NCBI GenBank assembly: GCA_030248225.1
Contig: JASANE010005281.1
Span: 35,980-99,979 of the forward strand
Source: Trileptium ribeirensis
Lineage: Eukaryota; Nematoda; Enoplea; Enoplida; Thoracostomopsidae
Length of the DNA: 64,000 nucleotides
Reading direction: 5' to 3'
The position numbers and the translations under genes are program-made. Under the pieces are notes generated by a model. That model did no database searches, had not been told where the DNA came from, and worked only from the letters and a program-made list of their open reading frames with translations. Each line of letters begins with the position of its first letter. Position 1 is the first letter of the stretch. This document shows positions 4,331 through 28,426 of the stretch, one piece after another.

Positions 4331-7300
4331 AAGAGCTCTCGTGGATTTTTTTCAATTATAAACAAGTTATTAGCAATGTATTCAGAATGTGGCACATATT
4401 AGTCTGTTATTTTTCAGGTGTTATTCTTCCATGTATATAATTATATCATTGTGCATAATGTGTCTGTTTTAAAAATGTGGCCGCAATTGCGCAAAGGTAG
4501 AATTTTTAATTTACCGTTTACAGAAACCATCTCGGAACATAAATTTTTTATAAACATTTATTGAATAAAATAAATTAATGGAAATACCTCACTATGAACA
4601 AAAATGTATAAACATAAGTGTAAAACTGGAGTCAATTATGCGCTTTTCTGTTTATATACTTTTACTTAATTATACCATGAGTTTCTTATGGTCAGTTGAG
4701 TCAAAATGTGGAAGTCATGTCACACTGTGACCATTCCCCTACTTGAAGAAGACCTAAAGTACAATTTTAAACTGTTCCCGGCAAATCAGAAAGTTTTCTG
4801 TTATTTTATTCTTTTTTCAAACTTTAAAAGGAATACCTCAAATACATCTGAATACTGTAAACAGCTCTAAGGGGAGATAATTTAACTTCTCGATGTTCAT
4901 GTATATTTAATTAATCCCGAAATTAGAAAATTTATGTTTTACACGCCACCAAGTTATGTTCAAAACCGCTATAGTATTTTTTAATTATTATAAGTGAACT
5001 TTTGCATATTTCATGACTAACGTCGCTGATTTCCGCTACGATTTCCTGCACTCAAATAATATTTCTAAATTAATTTAAATTCGAGATTGTCTACCTAAAG
5101 CCCAATTAATACAAAATCTAGTACGGATTTTATTGCATTATCCTAACTTAACAGCACCGTGTGCTTCAATCAAATTTGTAATTCAATAACTTTCAAGTGT
5201 ATCTTGTTGATCGAACATGGCAATTAATGGGATGTCAGAAAAAGTCTCGCTCAACGTTGATGAAAATGGTCGCTAAGTACATTATGAACGAGTACCGTTT
5301 GAAACGCAGTTTGAAAATGCTGCATTCCATCGCAAACATTTCAAATCATAGACTCAAATTTGATACAATATTTAATGAAGTAGATTTAGCAAGTTTCCTG
5401 AAATTCGATCTAAACGTCAAATAGATATGCGATTTTACCTATTTTTCTGACAACATTCTATTGTGCGCAACGCTGGAAGAAGGTGTTTCAGTCACGCAAT
5501 TCCTTATTGGTTGGGCTTGCCATGACACCAGACTTCAACACATATTAACTTGAGACACAAAACACCTCGAGCTTCATCATCTAATAACCGGAAGTAAACG
5601 ATTATCTTGCACCACTACCAATGTTTAGCAGGTTCGGCTTTATGTCTTACCGATATGAAGAGTAGTCCAATTGCTTATTTCTATCATTTTGTGATATATT
5701 TTTGCAAGTAGTAGTATTTTTATTATACACAATCAAACATGACAAACTAAAAACGTTATAATTTAAACAGTTAAGCATGTGGAGTCCGCAAATTTGATCT
5801 AATTCTCTGTCATATTCAACCAACCGACATAATAAACGGAAATCGATAATCAATTTTTTGATATTTGGAAATTAGTTGACATTGACATAAAGCACACACA
5901 TATTTATATACATTCGATTATACATAATCGAATTATAAAGCCAACAAATATCGAATTATAAAATTAAACAAACTATTTATCGATTGATATAGTTTCATAA
6001 TAACGATAAATTTTATTAGTCCAATTATACCTGTCATAACATATCATACAATAAAAGTCGTACAACGGAGAGTTATGCCTCGTGAAACCAAAATGACAAT
6101 TGCTGCTTCTATCGGACACAAAAGATTTGTATTGGAAATAATTTTTTCCATATTAAATATATTGTTAATAATAAAAAATAATTTATACACAGCAATAATC
6201 GGCTAATTATGCCGCAAATTCAGCTATAGGCAAACTAAACGATAGAATGTATATCTTATTTTATTTATCCGTACACACTAAAACTGAACACAATGTATAA
6301 TGTCGAAATCCGAACAAAAATGACAGTGAAAATGTCAGATTTAAATGACCATATCGTCGTTAGTTGTTATAACTCAATAATAATGGTCGTCTATCACTGC
6401 CGGTAAAAATAGAACATAATCGAATATATTTATTTATATATAAAAATTTTAGTATGATATGATAACTATTATTTAACTATTTATTTATTATTTAATTCGG
6501 CAATCCAAATTAAAGTTCAATAAATCGATTCGACAACAGTCAGTCACGAACGAACAAACGAACCAACGAATAAAACGGTAAATTAAATTGATTCTAAATT
6601 ATTGAAATCATGCGTTGATGACGGATTTTTTTAGGAATAAAAAATATGCTGACCACTACAAACTAGCACTGTGGAGTGGTGTTCTTGCTGCTACGATACG
6701 GTATATAAATCAGATTGCTCTGATCATTTCTAGAAAAACATTCTTACGCTTTTAAGAGATCCTTTTATATTAACATGTCGTTTAGGTGTAAAATGAAAAT
6801 ATTCTAAAATAATTTCGCACCTGGACACTCATATCTTGATTTTAATACTACAGCCATCCGTACTCTTTGTTAGTAATAAGCGAATCTTGTTTTAAACTAT
6901 TTTCAGTCGTACAACAAATAAAATTATCTGCCCTCAACACAAAAACGAAAAGATAGCAACAGTTTATGTGTAAAGTTAGAAATAAAAATTTCGATGTTTC
7001 AACAAATGCTAGCAGTAATACAAAGCAGCATCTATAAGTTGTAATTTTTTACAGAATATTTCGAATGCCTCATTATTTTGTTCCTAGCTCCGGTAAACAT
7101 TACCAAATAAACAGATGTAAATCTTTTATAGTGCTGAATGTTGCCACCTGGTTACAAAAGTTCATAAATCAGGTAAGACATATATTAGGTTTCTAAAGAG
7201 ACGACACGAGATTTAGCTACAAATGTAACGGATGGTAAAGAAAAACAATGACATGTTATCAAGATCATTAGTACTTATTGCCTTTTTTATATAAATTGTG

Positions 7301-20239: not shown

Positions 20240-21000
20240 CTACAAAATAAAGTCAAGACGTCGGGCTGCTGCTGTGGCAAAACTATCGATAACGGCGTCA
20301 ACTGTCGGTGTATCGGTGCGATGAACTTCTAGCAGAATGAGAGATTCAAGTCTTTGGTTGTCCATTGTGCTTCTTATTGTCGAGAGAGTTCTTTCGAGTT
20401 TAGAGAAAAGTCTCTCGTCATCTGCCGTTATCACTTGAATCGTACCTAGCAGCTGAACCGATGACGAAATATTTGGATAAGCGCTACAGTGGTCCAATGT
20501 GGAAAGAACTGTCGTCGGACGTTCAGAAACATCAACAGCTTGTCATTTGTGGTGCCAGAATCGATATTCGCCCTTGACAACTGTCACTGGATCCGGCAGC
20601 AAATCACAGTAAACATTCACTGCATCTTGCTATTTTGCCCACTCCTTGTCCTTCGATCATCTTCTTCACTGATGCAGGACAATAACATGCCCGCTCGTTT
20701 ACGCTGCACTGAAAAAACGACAGTTTCTTTTATCACATCCTGTGCGTGCTCGATAGTTGGAATTTTTAGTCTGTGCAGCGCACAAATTTAAACGGCGCAT
20801 AGCACAGTGAAAATACTGAGCTTTCTTGGCCTGAGCAAGAAATGTTGCAGCTGCTCCAACTCGTTCACTTGCCAAGGAGGCAGCACCATCATATCCTTGT
20901 CCGACATACGTCGATAATTCCAAATCTATCACTCCTACGATCTGAAGTAATGCTTCACCGACTGAAACGCCAGAAAGGAGAACTTTAGATCCATCTGTTG
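20240..21000 (-). pseudogene. hAT-family transposase relic (ZMYM/THAP-associated type)
   Basis: Minus-strand pieces appear in the correct order. At 20699-20990 is the central domain with YVGQGYDGAAS and FHCAMRRLNLC, the GQGYDGA...HC..HRLNL signature of eukaryotic hAT transposases (last H replaced by R here). At 20240-20497 is the C-terminal dimerisation domain with CSAYPNISSSVQLLGTIQV, DERLFSKLERT, IRSTM and RLESLILL. The 200 bp between is frameshifted and poorly conserved. The N-terminal zinc-finger part is missing because the sequence is cut at about 21000 by a GC-rich repeat. Terminal inverted repeats and an 8-bp duplication were not found. Confidence 0.75.
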
Positions 21001-21390: not shown

Positions 21391-21533
21391 AACTGGCGGA
21401 TTTGATTACGTAACAAGCTGTTACATATTAATTATGTCGAAAATAGTTTAAGTTAAAACGAATTTAACGATTTTTTGTTTAGTGGTTATAACAACATCGG
21501 TTTACATTCCAAATTAACTATTTGTTATTCGGA

Positions 21534-22691
21534 ATGGAAGGCACAATCAAATTGCGTATAAAACAAAGAGGGGCACTAAGAGCAAACATTAGTAATGAAA
21601 TTAAGGACTTAACTGCGGAACCAAACCCTAGTGATATAGAAAGCGCGGATCGCATACAATCTTCAATTACAAAGGTGAATGACTACAGGACACGTTCGTC
21701 TGCTTTAAATAATGATATATTGGCTGCAGTTGTTAGCGATGATGATATGACATCAGAAATCGAAGGCTCCGGTTACGTCGACGATTCTATTCTGGAGACA
21801 GTTGCTATATTTTCCGCCCGTCTCGACACTTTCTGGAAAACGCCCCAAAAAGTAGACAGTACTATCCCAACTGAATTTAACACATCAAAGCAGTTAGCTA
21901 GTGAATTTAAACCATCGGTACAGCTGCCTAAGTTACAGATTACTAAGTATGGGGGAGATCTATTAAAATGTCAAGAATTCTGGGACCAATTTCGTTCGAC
22001 GATCCATGATAATCATGATCTAACTACAATTGATAAGTATAAATACCTTCGCAGCTATTTGGTCGCAGATGCACTGCGCCTCATTGAAGGCTATCAATTA
22101 ACTGCAGATAATTACGGTCCAGTGGTTGACGCTTTAACAGAACGGTTTGGTAATACGCAGTTCGCTATTAATGCACATTTCGACGCTCTTTTAGCAATTC
22201 CCATAGCCTCTCACGAAATATGCCAACCTCAAAAACCATATGACGATAGTGAACGACATATTAGGAGCTTGATAGCGTTAGGCTCGGCAGAAGAAACCTT
22301 CGGCCAAGTTTTTACCCCGATAATTCCTTCTAAACTCCCAGTTTACGTTAAAATGAAATTGTATCGCAAGATTGGTACAAATACCTGGACATTGTCCAGT
22401 CTAAGAGAACTACTTAAGGAGGAGATTCGCGCAAGAGATATGAATCAACGTTCAGTGGGTGGCCACACAAAAGTTGACACTAGCCATCGTGAAAGTACTA
22501 GTAAGTTTCGCCGTAATATAAAGGAAAACAGCCTCGCATGGGAAGCTCGTCGGCGCTCATTGCAAATACCCCCAATCGAACCGTTCGGTGCAGCTTCTGT
22601 AGTGAACGACACTACACAGATCAGTGCAAACGGTATCCAGACATCCAATCGCATCGTCAACAAATACAGGGTAGATGCCAAATCTGCCTAA
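21534..22691 (+). CDS. gag: BEL/Pao Gag (DUF1759)
   Basis: Structural protein of the retrotransposon particle. The ATG at 21534 is chosen; the open frame extends four codons upstream without another ATG. An acidic N-terminal third is followed by the DUF1759 core from about residue 125: LPKLQITKYGGDLLKCQEFWDQF, DKYKYLRSYL, then LTERFGNTQFAINAHFDALL. These are standard positions for BEL/Pao Gag. The last about 40 codons are probably out of frame: the zinc knuckles that should follow are encoded in the -1 frame from about 22589. The switch falls near a run of five C at 22569-22573, so an indel there, or a recoding event, joins Gag to Pol. No classical slippery heptamer was seen. Confidence 0.85.
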   Translation: MEGTIKLRIKQRGALRANISNEIKDLTAEPNPSDIESADRIQSSITKVNDYRTRSSALNNDILAAVVSDDDMTSEIEGSGYVDDSILETVAIFSARLDTFWKTPQKVDSTIPTEFNTSKQLASEFKPSVQLPKLQITKYGGDLLKCQEFWDQFRSTIHDNHDLTTIDKYKYLRSYLVADALRLIEGYQLTADNYGPVVDALTERFGNTQFAINAHFDALLAIPIASHEICQPQKPYDDSERHIRSLIALGSAEETFGQVFTPIIPSKLPVYVKMKLYRKIGTNTWTLSSLRELLKEEIRARDMNQRSVGGHTKVDTSHRESTSKFRRNIKENSLAWEARRRSLQIPPIEPFGAASVVNDTTQISANGIQTSNRIVNKYRVDAKSA

Positions 22692-24982
22692 GCTCGAAAC
22701 ATAATTCCTCAAAATATCCTATTCGGCAAAACATTTGTTTCTATTACCATAGACAAGGTCATCATCGAGCCTTATGGAACACACAGTTTACAGCGAACGC
22801 AGTAAATATTCCCAAAGTTCGCGGATTGCCGACAGCCAGTACTCAATCCCCAATAGAACATAGTCAGACGGCAAGTACTGGCTCCACAGCCACTGATTCT
22901 ACCCTGCTGTCTCATGGAGAACAATCAATATTGCAAACCGCGCTGGCAATGGTTTGCGGGTTTGACGGTGATAAACCGTTGACAGCACGACTGATGTTCG
23001 ATACCGGAAGTTCGCGAACATTTATTACCTCAAAACTATCAAAGGCTATCAAAGCTACGAAAATTGGAAAAGACATCATGTCATTGGCAGGGTTTGCAGC
23101 GAGTAAACGAACAACCGTAACTTACCAAAATGCTTCCTTCAAGGTTATCTTGACGGACTTCTCTGCAAAAAGGGTGACAGCAAATGTCATCCCAACGATT
23201 TCTTGTCCCATTCAGAAGTGGTCGCCGGACATTAACAAATATCTGGTTATGAAACTCATGTGTCTAGCCGAGCCGGTGTCGGTTCAGGCCGAACTGGTTA
23301 ACGTCGACATTCTTATCGGTACCAATTTGTATTATGAGTTCGTTGAGAGTGAACGTATTCAGTGTTCTGATGGACTTGTGTTTCTTTCATCATCGTTGGA
23401 GTTTATTGCTACTGGTCGTGTAGAAGCGCAACCGGACTCCGCGCAACTAACTACCGGAATCGAACGATTTTGGAGCCTTGTGGACATTGGAATTAAATCC
23501 CCATCGTCTACAAATACTAATGAAGAAGCTCTTCAGCAATTTAATAACATCGTGACATATGAAGGCGATCGTTATACGGTGTCGTTTCCGCTTAAATCAG
23601 ATGCTCCTAACTTGCCTGACAACAAAGGGCTGGCATTTGAACGGTTGAAGTCACTTCTTAAACGGTTATCGGCTGATCCAAAATTGTTTACCGCCTATAA
23701 CGAAATTATTCGGGAACAAATAAGGAAGAGTATCGTGGAATTTGCTCCATCAGAAGGCCCAGATGACGTTGCGCATTATATTCCCCACCACTGTGTTATC
23801 ACGCCACAGAATTCGACCAATAAACTACGCATTTTATACGATGCTTCGGCTAAGGCTACCAAGACATCGCCTATTCTGAATGATTGTATGCACGGCGGAC
23901 CTGTTTTATTAGATGATTTGGTCGGGTTGTTGCTCCCATTTCGCTTACATCCCATTGCGATTGTCAGCGATATCGAAAGGGCATTTTTACAAGTTGGACT
24001 TAATGAACGTTCGCGAAACCTGACTCGATTCGTGTGGATAAAAAGTCCATTGCAACCGTTGAAGGGCGACAATGTTATTATTCTTCGATTTACCCGAGTG
24101 TTTTTTGGCGCCATTGCTAGCCCCTCTCTACTTGGAGCGGTTATCCAACACCATCTAAAACAGTCAAATCTTCCAGTTGCATTGGAAATATTAGGCAACA
24201 TATACGTCGACAATGTTGTCACCGGGAAACCAACCAGTGCTGAAGCAAGGGGATTTTACGCACAAGGCAAGTCTCTTTTTAAAAAGGCTTCGATGAACCT
24301 TCGTGAGTGGTTCACAAATGACACATTCTTTCGGAATGAAATCAAAGCAGCCGATCGAGGATGTGGTGAGGTGATAAAGGTGTTAGGACTGTCTTGGAAC
24401 ACAATCACAGACACAATCGCGTGCTCCACGTTCGAGATACCGGTTAATGCTATAAACACAAAACGGCTAGTGCTCAAACACCTTGCAAAAATCTTTGATT
24501 CATGTGGATTTTATTCAGCAATCACAATCTCGGGAAAATTATTTGTTCAACATCTGTGGACAGAAAAATACGGATGGGATGACGTTTTGCCACAAGAAGA
24601 ACCTCGGCGATGGCAAGAATTTTCAATAGAGCTGCAACGTATTCCGGAACATAGCCTAAGCCGTTGTATTAATGCAGCCTTGGCGCTGGACAGCTCTAAT
24701 CTTGAGTTACATTGTTTTTGTGACGCGTCGACCAAGGCATACGCGGCTAATATCTATCTCCGTACAACAAATGGGGAAAATTATAATACCGACCTATTAT
24801 TTGCGAAACCACGTGTCGCGCTTGTCAAGCCAACGTCAGTTCCCAGACTTGAGCTCATGGCAGCATTAATAGGAACCCGAATCCTAAAGTGTGCTGCGGA
24901 CCAGCTCCGTCTCCAGATAAGAGAAAAACTCTTTGGTGTGACTGACAGTGTGTCCTACATTGGCTTGCGAAAATATCTATAA
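22538..24982 (+). pseudogene. pol: BEL/Pao Pol N-terminal part: zinc knuckle, protease, RT, RNase H
   Basis: Residue numbers are from the ATG at 22538, which is unlikely to be the real start. A CCHC knuckle C18-x2-C21-x3-H25-x4-C30 is intact; a second and third have lost cysteines (Y60, W80). The protease motif DTGSS is at 155-159, with VDILIGTN at 256-263. RT has the first aspartate in SDIERAF (D478), while the catalytic box reads YVDN (556-559) instead of YVDD, removing a metal-binding aspartate. Pao-type RNase H shows CDAS (D729), PRLELMAA (E772) and TDS (D803). At about 24960 the frame is lost; RNase H and linker sequence (FVKNRINEI, NPADLATRG) continue in another frame to about 25260. 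The YVDN change and frameshift argue that this copy is dead, though sequencing error is possible for the indels. Confidence 0.9.
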
Positions 24983-25258
24983 CCACCGTATTTGTCAAAA
25001 ACAGGATCAATGAGATCAAGTCACACTCTGACGTCATTTTTCGTTACGTCCCTACCAAAGATAATCCCGCAGATTTAGCAACTCGGGGGTGCTCATTTAA
25101 TGCACTAATTTCGAGTGATTTTTGGTGGAAGGGTCCGCTGTTTTTAAAGTATGGCAGGGAGACTTCGCCAACAGATATTGATAAGGCAACATCATGGCCC
25201 TCGTTGGAAGTGGGACAATCTGCAGCTGGTGATGAAATAGTTGTGGTAAGAACCTCTT

Positions 25259-26180
25259 TTGAAGGTATCAGATTATTTAAATTTACTTAGGCTGTATAGG
25301 GTCACGTCCTGGATCAATCGATTTAGCTACAACTGTCGTCACAAGGATCGACGAATTGGCTCGTTATCATCAAACAAAATTGCGGAATCTCGAAATTTTT
25401 GGAATCACTATATTCAACAAACGACTTTTCCATACATGTTTAGTACGCAAAACCCAAAGACCCATCAAAATACATATGTTAATTTTAATACTTTTATTGA
25501 CTCTGATGGATTTCTAAAATGTGCCGGTCGCTTCGAACAAGCCGATGTCGAGGACAGTGCCAAATTTCCAATTTTACTGCCCAAAAACCACCCATACACA
25601 GACTTGGTTATCAGGTATTGCCACGAAAGTCTTTATCATTGGGGGATATCACATACATTAGCACAATTTCGTACCCAATACTGGGTTATTCATGGTCGTG
25701 GTCACGTCAAGCGGATAATTAATGGCTGCAGGGTATGCAAAGCAGCACATGGAGGCCACTTTCGTGCACCACCATTCCCGCCTCTGCCTGATATCAGAGT
25801 GACTCAATTCAAACCTTTTACATGGGTTGGGGTAGAATATTTGGGTCTACTTTACGTAAATGCGGCCACAGGAAGTTATAAAATTTGGGTTTGCTTATTT
25901 ACATGTGCCGTGATCAGAGCTATACATCTTGAAGTGGTGGACGACTTGACGGTAGTTCAGTTTATTTTTTGTCTTCGTCACTTTATCTCACTTCGTGGAC
26001 TGCCTGTATCTTATAGTCTCAGATAACGCAAAACATTTTCACGCCGCAAATAAAACTCTAACCAATGTGTGGTCAAACATACAACAAAGCGGTGAGGTGC
26101 AAAACTTTGCCATCTCGCGCGGGATCTCGTGGTGATTTACCACTGCACTAGCGCCGTGGACGGGCGGCTTTTATGAACGT
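25259..26180 (+). pseudogene. pol: BEL/Pao integrase: H2C2 domain and core
   Basis: In the frame beginning at 25259, VTSWINRF (residues 15-22) is followed by the H2C2 zinc-binding domain: H122, H127, C157, C160 (GCRVC). The core begins at about 188, but the first catalytic aspartate is replaced by glutamate (VGVEYLG, E193). After a +1 slip near 26010 the core continues in the next frame with SDNAKHFH (second Asp present). A TGA follows at about 26133, then APWTGGFYERMVG (catalytic Glu present). The integrase therefore lacks one catalytic Asp and is split by a frameshift and a stop. Confidence 0.85.
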
Positions 26181-26876
26181 ATGGTTGGAATTGCAAAGCG
26201 CGCCATCAAAAAATCGCTTGATCGAAGACGTGTTACAAAGACGGAGCTCCAAACGGTGCTAGCCGAGATCATAGCTGTCGTAAATTCCCGACCTTTGGTA
26301 TACTCAGAAGCAACGCCTTCTGGGACACCGCTGACCCCTTCACACATTCTTGCAGGGCCACATCAACCGATACCACGGTTTCCACTAGTCAATAGCGGAA
26401 CATCAGAGACTAAACTACAAACAACGGGATATACCTTAGTCCAAACTTGGAAAAGTATTCAATCATTATTAGATTCTTTTTGGAAAAGTTGGCGTAATGA
26501 ATATCTCTTGGGTCTTAGATCAGGATCTTACCAGTCCAAGCAAAGAAATACTGTCAATTCTGTGCCATCCGTTGGAGACATAGTTCTAGTTAAAGATCAT
26601 CTTCCTCTGTGTCACTGGCAGATGGGATTAATTGTGTCAACCCGAGAGAGCGCGGACGGTCATGTTCGGTCCGCATGTTTGAGACTTCCGAACAACGAAA
26701 CCATTAACAGACCAGTAAAATCGTTGTATCCACTTGAAATTTCATCGGAAGAAACACGTGCTTTAGGTAGAATTCACAATAATCCTCCTAAACAGCCTTT
26801 AGCTAAACGTGTTCTTAACACACAAGTAAATCCGCAAATTGATTCGGAAGTTTCTGATCGTTCCGAGGACTTATAA
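26181..26876 (+). CDS. pol: BEL/Pao integrase C-terminus and DUF5641-like domain
   Basis: Continuation of the integrase. MVGIAKRAIKKSL follows the catalytic Glu helix, then NSRPLVY and PLTPSHILAG, the conserved end of the BEL/Pao integrase core. From about residue 95, FWKSWRNEYLLGLR, VGDIVLVKD, and NRPVKSLYPLE match the DUF5641 (chromo/SH3-like) tail of this superfamily. The listed start is where the frame becomes uninterrupted, not a true start codon. The frame stops with TAA at 26874-26876. Confidence 0.85.
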   Translation: MVGIAKRAIKKSLDRRRVTKTELQTVLAEIIAVVNSRPLVYSEATPSGTPLTPSHILAGPHQPIPRFPLVNSGTSETKLQTTGYTLVQTWKSIQSLLDSFWKSWRNEYLLGLRSGSYQSKQRNTVNSVPSVGDIVLVKDHLPLCHWQMGLIVSTRESADGHVRSACLRLPNNETINRPVKSLYPLEISSEETRALGRIHNNPPKQPLAKRVLNTQVNPQIDSEVSDRSEDL

Positions 26877-26897: not shown

Positions 26898-26952
26898 GCT
26901 ATACATCCACACAATGAACATACGTTAACCAATCACGCTGTCATCAGCTCAC

Positions 26953-27984
26953 GTGCTTTCGCGGCTACGCATGCATAACACCCCACTGCAATTGGGCGAC
27001 TTAAAATTTAGCTCAATGGAGAAGATAAGATATTATGTAATGTTGGTACAAGAAGGCAACCGAAACCTAGCTCGTCGGCTCGAGGTGAACACGCTGTTAG
27101 ATCAAACTCCTGGCGACATCGCAGCTTTGGTGAAGTCCCACGGTGGAGCAACAAGTGCGGAAGGGACCTTTCTTGCACCATCTGTGCTCGCAGATTTAAT
27201 GCTATATATTGTTATTCAACAACCACTCAGCCCGTTTGCTACGGTTTTTATGAAAATTTTCAATTCAACGTCAGATCCTGTCAAGGACATACGGTCTGTG
27301 CAATGTACCGCAAAACGGGAGTCGATTTGGTCGTGCGGACTCCTACGTAATGAAGTTCACGCGCGCAAGGAACAATTCGGTTTTAATTGTTACGGAAAAT
27401 TATTGGATGATCTGTTAAAACGAGTAGCTGGTAATAATTATAATTGGAATATTTATCCCGTCCAAAATTTATTACACATACAACAAGCTCCCACAGTCGG
27501 CTACACCCGAATTGTTCTTTTATTATCAGACAGCATGAGTCCACACATTGATACGGTGAAGGGTGGTCACGGTGAGATACTGTCCGGGGCCCGCTATGAG
27601 GATACAGCTTATATCATTGGAAGTCGCAATTTTCGGTTTCGTGACTTCAACACGGTTGTCATTCATTGCGGCATCAACGATGCTCAGAAATCAAAGGAGT
27701 GGCGACATAACTCATGGCGTACCATCCAAGCTGCTCTAATACAACGGTTGGGCGATCAGGTTGGTTCAAATATTATAATAAGTGCAGCTATTCCACACAA
27801 GGATGCGCCTGTGGCTACAAAATATACCCTATAGATCAATAAACAATTCCAGGGCGCAGCAATATCAGTGATAAACTGGCAGGAGCGTTATGGGATCGAA
27901 CCCTTCACTCCAACGATGTACGATGAACAGGGATTTCATCTAAATCGCGGTACTGGGCATGTATCGTCAAAGATCTTCGAATGA
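26953..27984 (+). CDS. Extra ORF of the BEL/Pao element: KilA-N-like plus SGNH hydrolase-like domains
   Basis: The open frame runs from 26953 (GTG; first ATG at 26971) to TAG 27832-27834, then stays open in the same frame for 49 more codons to TGA 27982-27984. Residues about 20-105 resemble a KilA-N DNA-binding domain, best at its end: GTFLAPSVLADLML (71-84) and SPFATVFMKIFN (93-104), like the family's G-T-[WY]-[VI]-x-P-x-L-A ... S-P-x-F-A pattern. Residues about 185-293 resemble an SGNH/GDSL hydrolase: LLSDSMS (block I, 190-196), CGIND (block III, 239-243), and after the TAG, GFHLN (block V His) with Q where the catalytic Asp usually lies. Predominantly soluble: no signal peptide or TM, so it is not a typical Env. 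The composition matches the element. Function is not known; domain assignments come from motif reading, not a search. Confidence 0.55.
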
Positions 27985-28281: not shown

Positions 28282-28426
28282 GGTCAAATTTGGAACATAA
28301 AGTGGAATAAATTGAAGAAAATTCAATAGAAACATTACTTTTGATTATTCAGGGAACTCACATTTTTCGGGGGAATGTCAAAGATTCTTGATCTTTTGAT
28401 GAATATGAATAAATATTTTGCATAAT

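Follow-up and report, generated by a model that had tools for sequence, protein, structure and literature searches.

We report a lineage of BEL/Pao retrotransposons in the genome of the nematode Trileptium ribeirensis whose third coding region (ORF3), as judged from its sequence, probably combines an SGNH esterase domain with a degenerate domain of the NADAR type. The lineage was recognized in a window of 64,000 nucleotides, this being the whole stretch of DNA analysed, in which the features of the element and of its ORF3 are placed as follows:

21492..22691, + strand: gag frame with DUF1759 (PF03564, E 4.2e-28)
22517..24982, + strand: frame with protease, reverse transcriptase and Peptidase_A17 (PF05380, E 3.2e-41; PF13650, E 1.6e-5; PF00078, E 0.0079)
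25250..26026, + strand: zinc-binding part of the integrase (H2C2; PF17921, E 9.4e-9), a separate frame in this decayed copy
26136..26876, + strand: C-terminal part of the integrase with DUF5641 (PF18701, E 4.2e-17)
26971..27984, + strand: ORF3 counted from its first Met, interrupted by a single TAG (at least 131 relatives in the genome)
26971..27430, + strand: probable NADAR-like half of ORF3, boundary approximate (profile-profile match with NADAR; PF08719, E 1.4e-4 in the relative L042)
27508..27984, + strand: predicted SGNH hydrolase half of ORF3 (PF13472 in 26 of 33 members at E<=1; residue counts)
28376..28400, + strand: probable start of the 3' LTR, TGTCAAAG, downstream of a purine-rich tract (likeness to the LTR of the relative L009)

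The element is assigned to BEL/Pao because the gag frame with DUF1759, the frame with the protease, reverse transcriptase and Peptidase_A17, and the zinc-binding part of the integrase all stand upstream of ORF3. The domain order is that of BEL/Pao elements, namely gag (DUF1759), protease, reverse transcriptase, Peptidase_A17 and integrase with DUF5641, spread over several frames in the window copy and found as a complete set within one frame in the relative L025. The window copy is decayed, with its gag-pol region split and the 22517..24982 frame overlapping the end of the gag frame. No 5' LTR or LTR pair was found for it. Its probable 3' LTR start is identical to the LTR of L009 over the first 8 bases and 81% identical over 27 bases, at an E of only 0.85, and the 3' untranslated stretch of L009 matches window positions 28295-28344 (E 0.001). 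Upstream of the gag frame, on the minus strand (20243-20542), lies part of a hAT transposase (Dimer_Tnp_hAT, E 3.2e-7), near the place where the 5' LTR would be expected.

A first-pass annotation of this DNA had described a separate frame with a single TAG after the DUF5641 end of pol, and the open reading frames of the window agree with it. The ORF3 frame begins 52 bases downstream of the frame with DUF5641 (26136-26876), is open over 26929-27831, meets the TAG at 27832-27834 and reopens in the same frame until the TGA at 27982-27984, with its first Met at 26971. The short sequence patterns singled out in that annotation (GTFLAPSVLADLML, SPFATVFMKIF, SDS, GIND and GFHLN) are likewise all present in this frame. 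The TAG fits decay of this particular copy, since its gag-pol lies in several frames and many of its relatives have no stop within the match. Searches with the window ORF3 as a single sequence returned no Pfam family at E<=1 and no match in the PDB, and a large protein database yielded no relatives with this query and one with the family alignment. None was found among the viral contigs searched, or in the phage records searched with the ORF3 of L009, and nothing informative was matched among the PHROGs.

Within the 687-Mb genome itself, a protein search in which only the best candidates were scored placed relatives of ORF3 at 131 or more sites, with 24-100% identity. When the relative L042 served as query, at least 107 places were found, and the two lists joined comprise at least 166, with one copy on contig 1444 counted as two fragments. 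In many of these relatives the match is free of stops and lies in a frame of about 350-470 codons, the protein being about 360-440 residues long, and four lie within frames of 914, 1676, 2232 and 2325 codons. We also located 152 places encoding the integrase C-terminal part, the best 150 of which were used; among the matches listed, an ORF3 place lies downstream of 66 of the 150 by the first list and of 81 by the joint list. Six of the 84 integrase places without ORF3 among the first-list matches were inspected, and all six had one. Hence, this branch of BEL/Pao elements usually carries ORF3 in this genome.

The genomic context was compared at 20 ORF3 loci (L009-L028). In 19 of them ORF3 is preceded by BEL gag and/or pol of the same strand, the exception being L019. 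ORF3 forms a separate frame in 12 loci, is broken in L011 and L012, and is fused in frame with gag-pol in L025, L026 and L027 and partly, with the integrase, in L028. Direct repeats of 86-100% identity occur at 12 of the 20 loci; the pair at L019 encloses ORF3 alone and one repeat at L028 overlaps the pol match. Ten of the repeat-bearing loci have both flanks, and by eye these match over 5-6 bp in L009, L012 and L016 and differ at the given repeat ends in the other seven. A common motif follows the 5' LTR in several relatives. LTRs, a primer-binding site and a target-site duplication were thus found in relatives only, the window holding just the probable 3' LTR start.

Individual loci display further arrangements. 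In both L009 (TAA, 6341-6343) and L016 (TGA, 6430-6432), one stop codon separates pol from an ORF3 in the same frame. In L026 (1511-6538), gag, protease, reverse transcriptase, Peptidase_A17 and ORF3 share one frame of 1676 codons; an integrase match is absent, and the direct repeats are 98.5% identical. In L019 (1598-3785), an open ORF3 stands by itself, without gag-pol, between two direct repeats of 232 bp that are identical to each other, and a primer-binding-like motif is present; the sequence past one repeat end differs, and a flank duplication was not seen there. L019 is possibly a non-autonomous, ORF3-only element.

Comparison of the ORF3 and pol sequences shows the two to be co-inherited. 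Their distances are correlated over 18 loci (Mantel r 0.75, with none of 2000 permutations as high), a comparison in which L019 was kept even though its pol match does not come from its ORF3 element. Separate ORF3 and pol trees have in common the groups of the window copy with L009, L010 with L012, L013 with L014 and L021, L016 with L020 and L022, and L027 with L028. In the ORF3 tree L019 falls in the L013 group, and the placement of L017, L019 and L026 differs or is unsure between the two trees. Purifying selection on ORF3 is likewise demonstrated, on the evidence of substitution ratios, for the two pairs that could be tested: at a useful divergence (Ks about 1.5) these have Ka/Ks values of 0.11 and 0.12, and either half of the protein taken separately gives 0.09-0.14. 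Five pairs of young copies have values of 0.42-0.98, and substitutions are saturated in 23 of the 30 pairs listed. The contrast between low values in divergent pairs and higher ones in young pairs fits a protein that is retained during replication and decays once a copy has inserted. With at least 131 relatives, many of them fully open, and the low Ka/Ks in the two useful pairs, ORF3 is more than a chance reading frame. The idea that one copy captured a host gene by chance would account for nothing beyond the copy first noticed; it is already refuted by the many copies and the co-inheritance with pol, and its probability is very small.

With regard to the domains of the protein, the SGNH hydrolase proposed at first pass is borne out by the sequence. 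With an E of 1 as the limit, 26 of the 33 aligned members match the Pfam model PF13472 (Lipase_GDSL_2), the best at 9.9e-11, and the catalytic residues are nearly invariant: the Ser of block I is present in 33/33, the Gly of block II and the Asn of block III in 32/33 each, and the His of block V in all 30 members that have letters at that position. The best PDB match of the ORF3 family profile is 4c1b, an 'ORF1-encoded protein' (E 7.3e-8), which we take to be the esterase of the ZfL2-1 LINE. In the window copy the block I Ser is encoded at 27532-27534, the block III Asn at 27676-27678 and the block V His, placed by reading, at 27937-27939, behind the TAG. By profile and residues, the C-terminal half of ORF3 is a predicted SGNH esterase in which the catalytic residues have been retained.

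The most probable origin of the N-terminal half is the NADAR (YbiA-like, NAD/ADP-ribose) superfamily, a reading that is carried by profile-profile comparison. Individual sequences score weakly: Pfam NADAR (PF08719) matches two of the 33 members, L042 (E 1.4e-4) and L048 (E 0.0018), at 22.6 and 19.0 bits against a curated Pfam cut-off of 35.1, and the other 31 have no NADAR match. Among the same 33, the NCBIfam riboflavin-intermediate N-glycosidase model TIGR02464, presumably of the YbiA type, is found in two members (best 0.038) and the NADAR anti-phage model NF053876 in one (0.16). Four further ORF3 frames and P0001 have no NADAR match at E<=0.5, and a single-sequence PDB search with L042 returned three matches only, at E 0.11 or worse. 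A first hhalign comparison, with the window copy included, against 10 NADAR proteins gave a probability of 23% (P 9e-4, score 27.8), with 40 shuffles scoring at most 19.1. Comparison of an alignment of 37 ORF3 relatives, without the window copy, with one of 20 NADAR proteins, 10 of them from phages and plasmids, gave a probability of 93% (P 2.6e-7) and a score of 49.1, with 143 of 164 columns covered. As controls, 100 column-shuffled NADAR alignments scored at most 19.9, the gag, reverse transcriptase and integrase alignments at most 14.8, and the SGNH half against NADAR 15.0. When a NADAR HMM was run against 74 forward and reversed ORF3 proteins, the 22 best were all forward, most of them weak (best E 7.9e-5); in the reciprocal search, an ORF3 HMM run against 40 NADAR proteins, forward and reversed, placed forward sequences in the first 11 ranks and a reversed one twelfth.

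The conserved Glu, Trp, Glu/Asp, Gly and Asn/Gly columns of ORF3 follow one another in the NADAR order. The catalytic residues of NADAR include a Glu and a Lys, as given in PMC11543638. The column of the catalytic Glu is kept in 29 of the 33 members. The Lys seven residues past it is absent in 33/33, with an Arg or Lys two positions further on in 12/33, and the later acidic position is occupied by Cys, Ser or Thr in 29/33, with a Glu or Asp five residues downstream, again in 29/33. The full NADAR set of Glu, Lys at a spacing of seven, and later acidic residue is therefore not found in ORF3. Because the Lys is absent and the later acidic position replaced, the N-terminal half probably derives from a NADAR domain but lacks the hydrolase activity known for NADAR.

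The weak single-sequence scores in only two of 33 members, the missing catalytic Lys and the poor AlphaFold2 model (window frame and one relative, mean pLDDT 37) could also be explained by an SGNH esterase whose N-terminal extension is helical, confined to the lineage and without homology to NADAR. The profile-profile P of 2.6e-7, when set against 100 shuffles and four decoys from real families, argues against such an extension, as does the conservation of columns in the NADAR order, and we consider it unlikely. A further reading, that of the first-pass annotation, combined the SGNH esterase with a KilA-N DNA-binding domain, on the strength of short stretches of ORF3 that by eye resemble what we take to be the C-terminal pattern of KilA-N. 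Scanned at E<=1, the 33 members match 14 Pfam families in all, and KilA-N (in Pfam-A presumably PF04383) is absent from these, whereas NADAR-type models do match, and the NADAR profile match is collinear across 143 columns. KilA-N was accordingly rejected, its presence being highly improbable. The proposal of a captured accessory protein is supported for its esterase part and unsupported for its KilA-N DNA-binding part, where NADAR-type models match instead, if weakly.

Genes for canonical NADAR domains are also abundant in this genome, being present at 150 or more places with scores of 124-141 bits (e.g., L049 2-907 and L050 282-848). The search with canonical NADAR gave 2317 first-look candidates, and by eye none among the matches listed coincides with an ORF3 place. 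In L050 (282-1363) the canonical NADAR frame overlaps the next frame, which codes for a TATA-binding-protein domain (PF00352, E 1.1e-28) and is followed by two frames without a Pfam match at E<=0.01; these frames may together form a gene cluster belonging to a DNA element or a virus-like one. Canonical NADAR seems to have been multiplied in this genome by another repeat or virus-like element.

The position of ORF3 after pol also raises the question of an env-like protein conferring infectivity, and env-like genes are indeed mentioned as the extra genes of some BEL/Pao elements (Belpaoviridae; PMC8742986 and PMC3118150). The domains of ORF3 are of the enzyme type, and no envelope family is among the 14 Pfam families matched. 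In a simple Kyte-Doolittle scan a 19-residue hydrophobic peak above 1.6 was seen in just 3 of the 33 members, and this lack of a clear membrane segment speaks against env. For want of a clear membrane anchor the env-like reading was rejected, and we regard it as very unlikely. The first-pass view of ORF3 as a third, non-env ORF of a BEL/Pao element, coding for an accessory protein retained by a lineage, is upheld.

By analogy with the ORF1p esterase of the ZfL2-1 LINE (PMC3905857), the SGNH half might bind and/or deacylate membrane phospholipid, which would let particles or RNPs assemble on membranes or leave them. The NADAR-like half could act as a non-hydrolytic adaptor that binds nucleic acid, a nucleotide or ADP-ribose. 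As a whole, we tentatively posit a membrane-linked assembly factor with esterase and adaptor halves, a mechanism built on analogy that may well prove otherwise. It is quite unlikely that ORF3 is instead a counter-defence module, in which the NADAR half would be directed against host ADP-ribosyltransferases, reading or shielding ADP-ribosylated bases in the RNA or cDNA of the element or sequestering ADP-ribose, with the SGNH half anchoring particles to membranes. If this is true, the handling of ADP-ribose by NADAR-type domains would be a tool of general use to the mobile elements of animals.

In the open-licence literature searched, we found no report of NADAR or SGNH domains in BEL/Pao elements, or of a fusion of the two; each has already been reported in other retroelements. 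The Vesta1 LTR retrotransposons of bdelloid rotifers carry a GDSL/SGNH ORF3 (PMC5408684), and resemble the present elements in having an SGNH hydrolase downstream of pol, in the position of env, with its invariant residues intact. They differ in belonging to the Vesta lineage with a dUTPase domain and, in one species, in carrying a DEDDy exonuclease as the extra domain of that ORF; NADAR goes unmentioned in the available text of that paper. The ORF1p esterases of LINEs (ZfL2-1; CR1 and RTEX) provide another instance of an SGNH domain in a retroelement accessory protein, in this case the ORF1 protein of a non-LTR element, with no NADAR half mentioned in the available portion of PMC3905857. Conversely, one Ectocarpus Gypsy lineage and the ORF1 of Tx1 LINEs of Crassostrea gigas are reported to possess a NADAR domain (PMC12477816). 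Like the lineage described here, these are retrotransposons that acquired NADAR, but they bear it in the N-terminal region of the Gypsy Pol or in the LINE ORF1, and the available text does not mention SGNH, esterase or BEL. The YbiA/NADAR guanine-ADP-ribose hydrolases (PMC11543638 and PMC11125620) are very probably remote homologues of the N-terminal half of ORF3 over nearly the whole domain, from which ORF3 differs in the loss of the catalytic Lys (33/33), the altered later acidic position and the junction with SGNH. With the env-bearing BEL/Pao elements ORF3 shares the gag-pol architecture and an extra gene past pol, the difference being that ORF3 is not env-like. Thus, a large and diverse set of BEL/Pao elements in one genome keeps an enzyme-type two-domain protein instead of an env-like gene, and both of its domains have been acquired singly by other classes of retroelements. 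That domains acquired separately elsewhere are joined in ORF3 points to a shared step of the retroelement life cycle that uses SGNH and NADAR-type domains, for which the ORF3 family, with its many intact reading frames, offers material for study.
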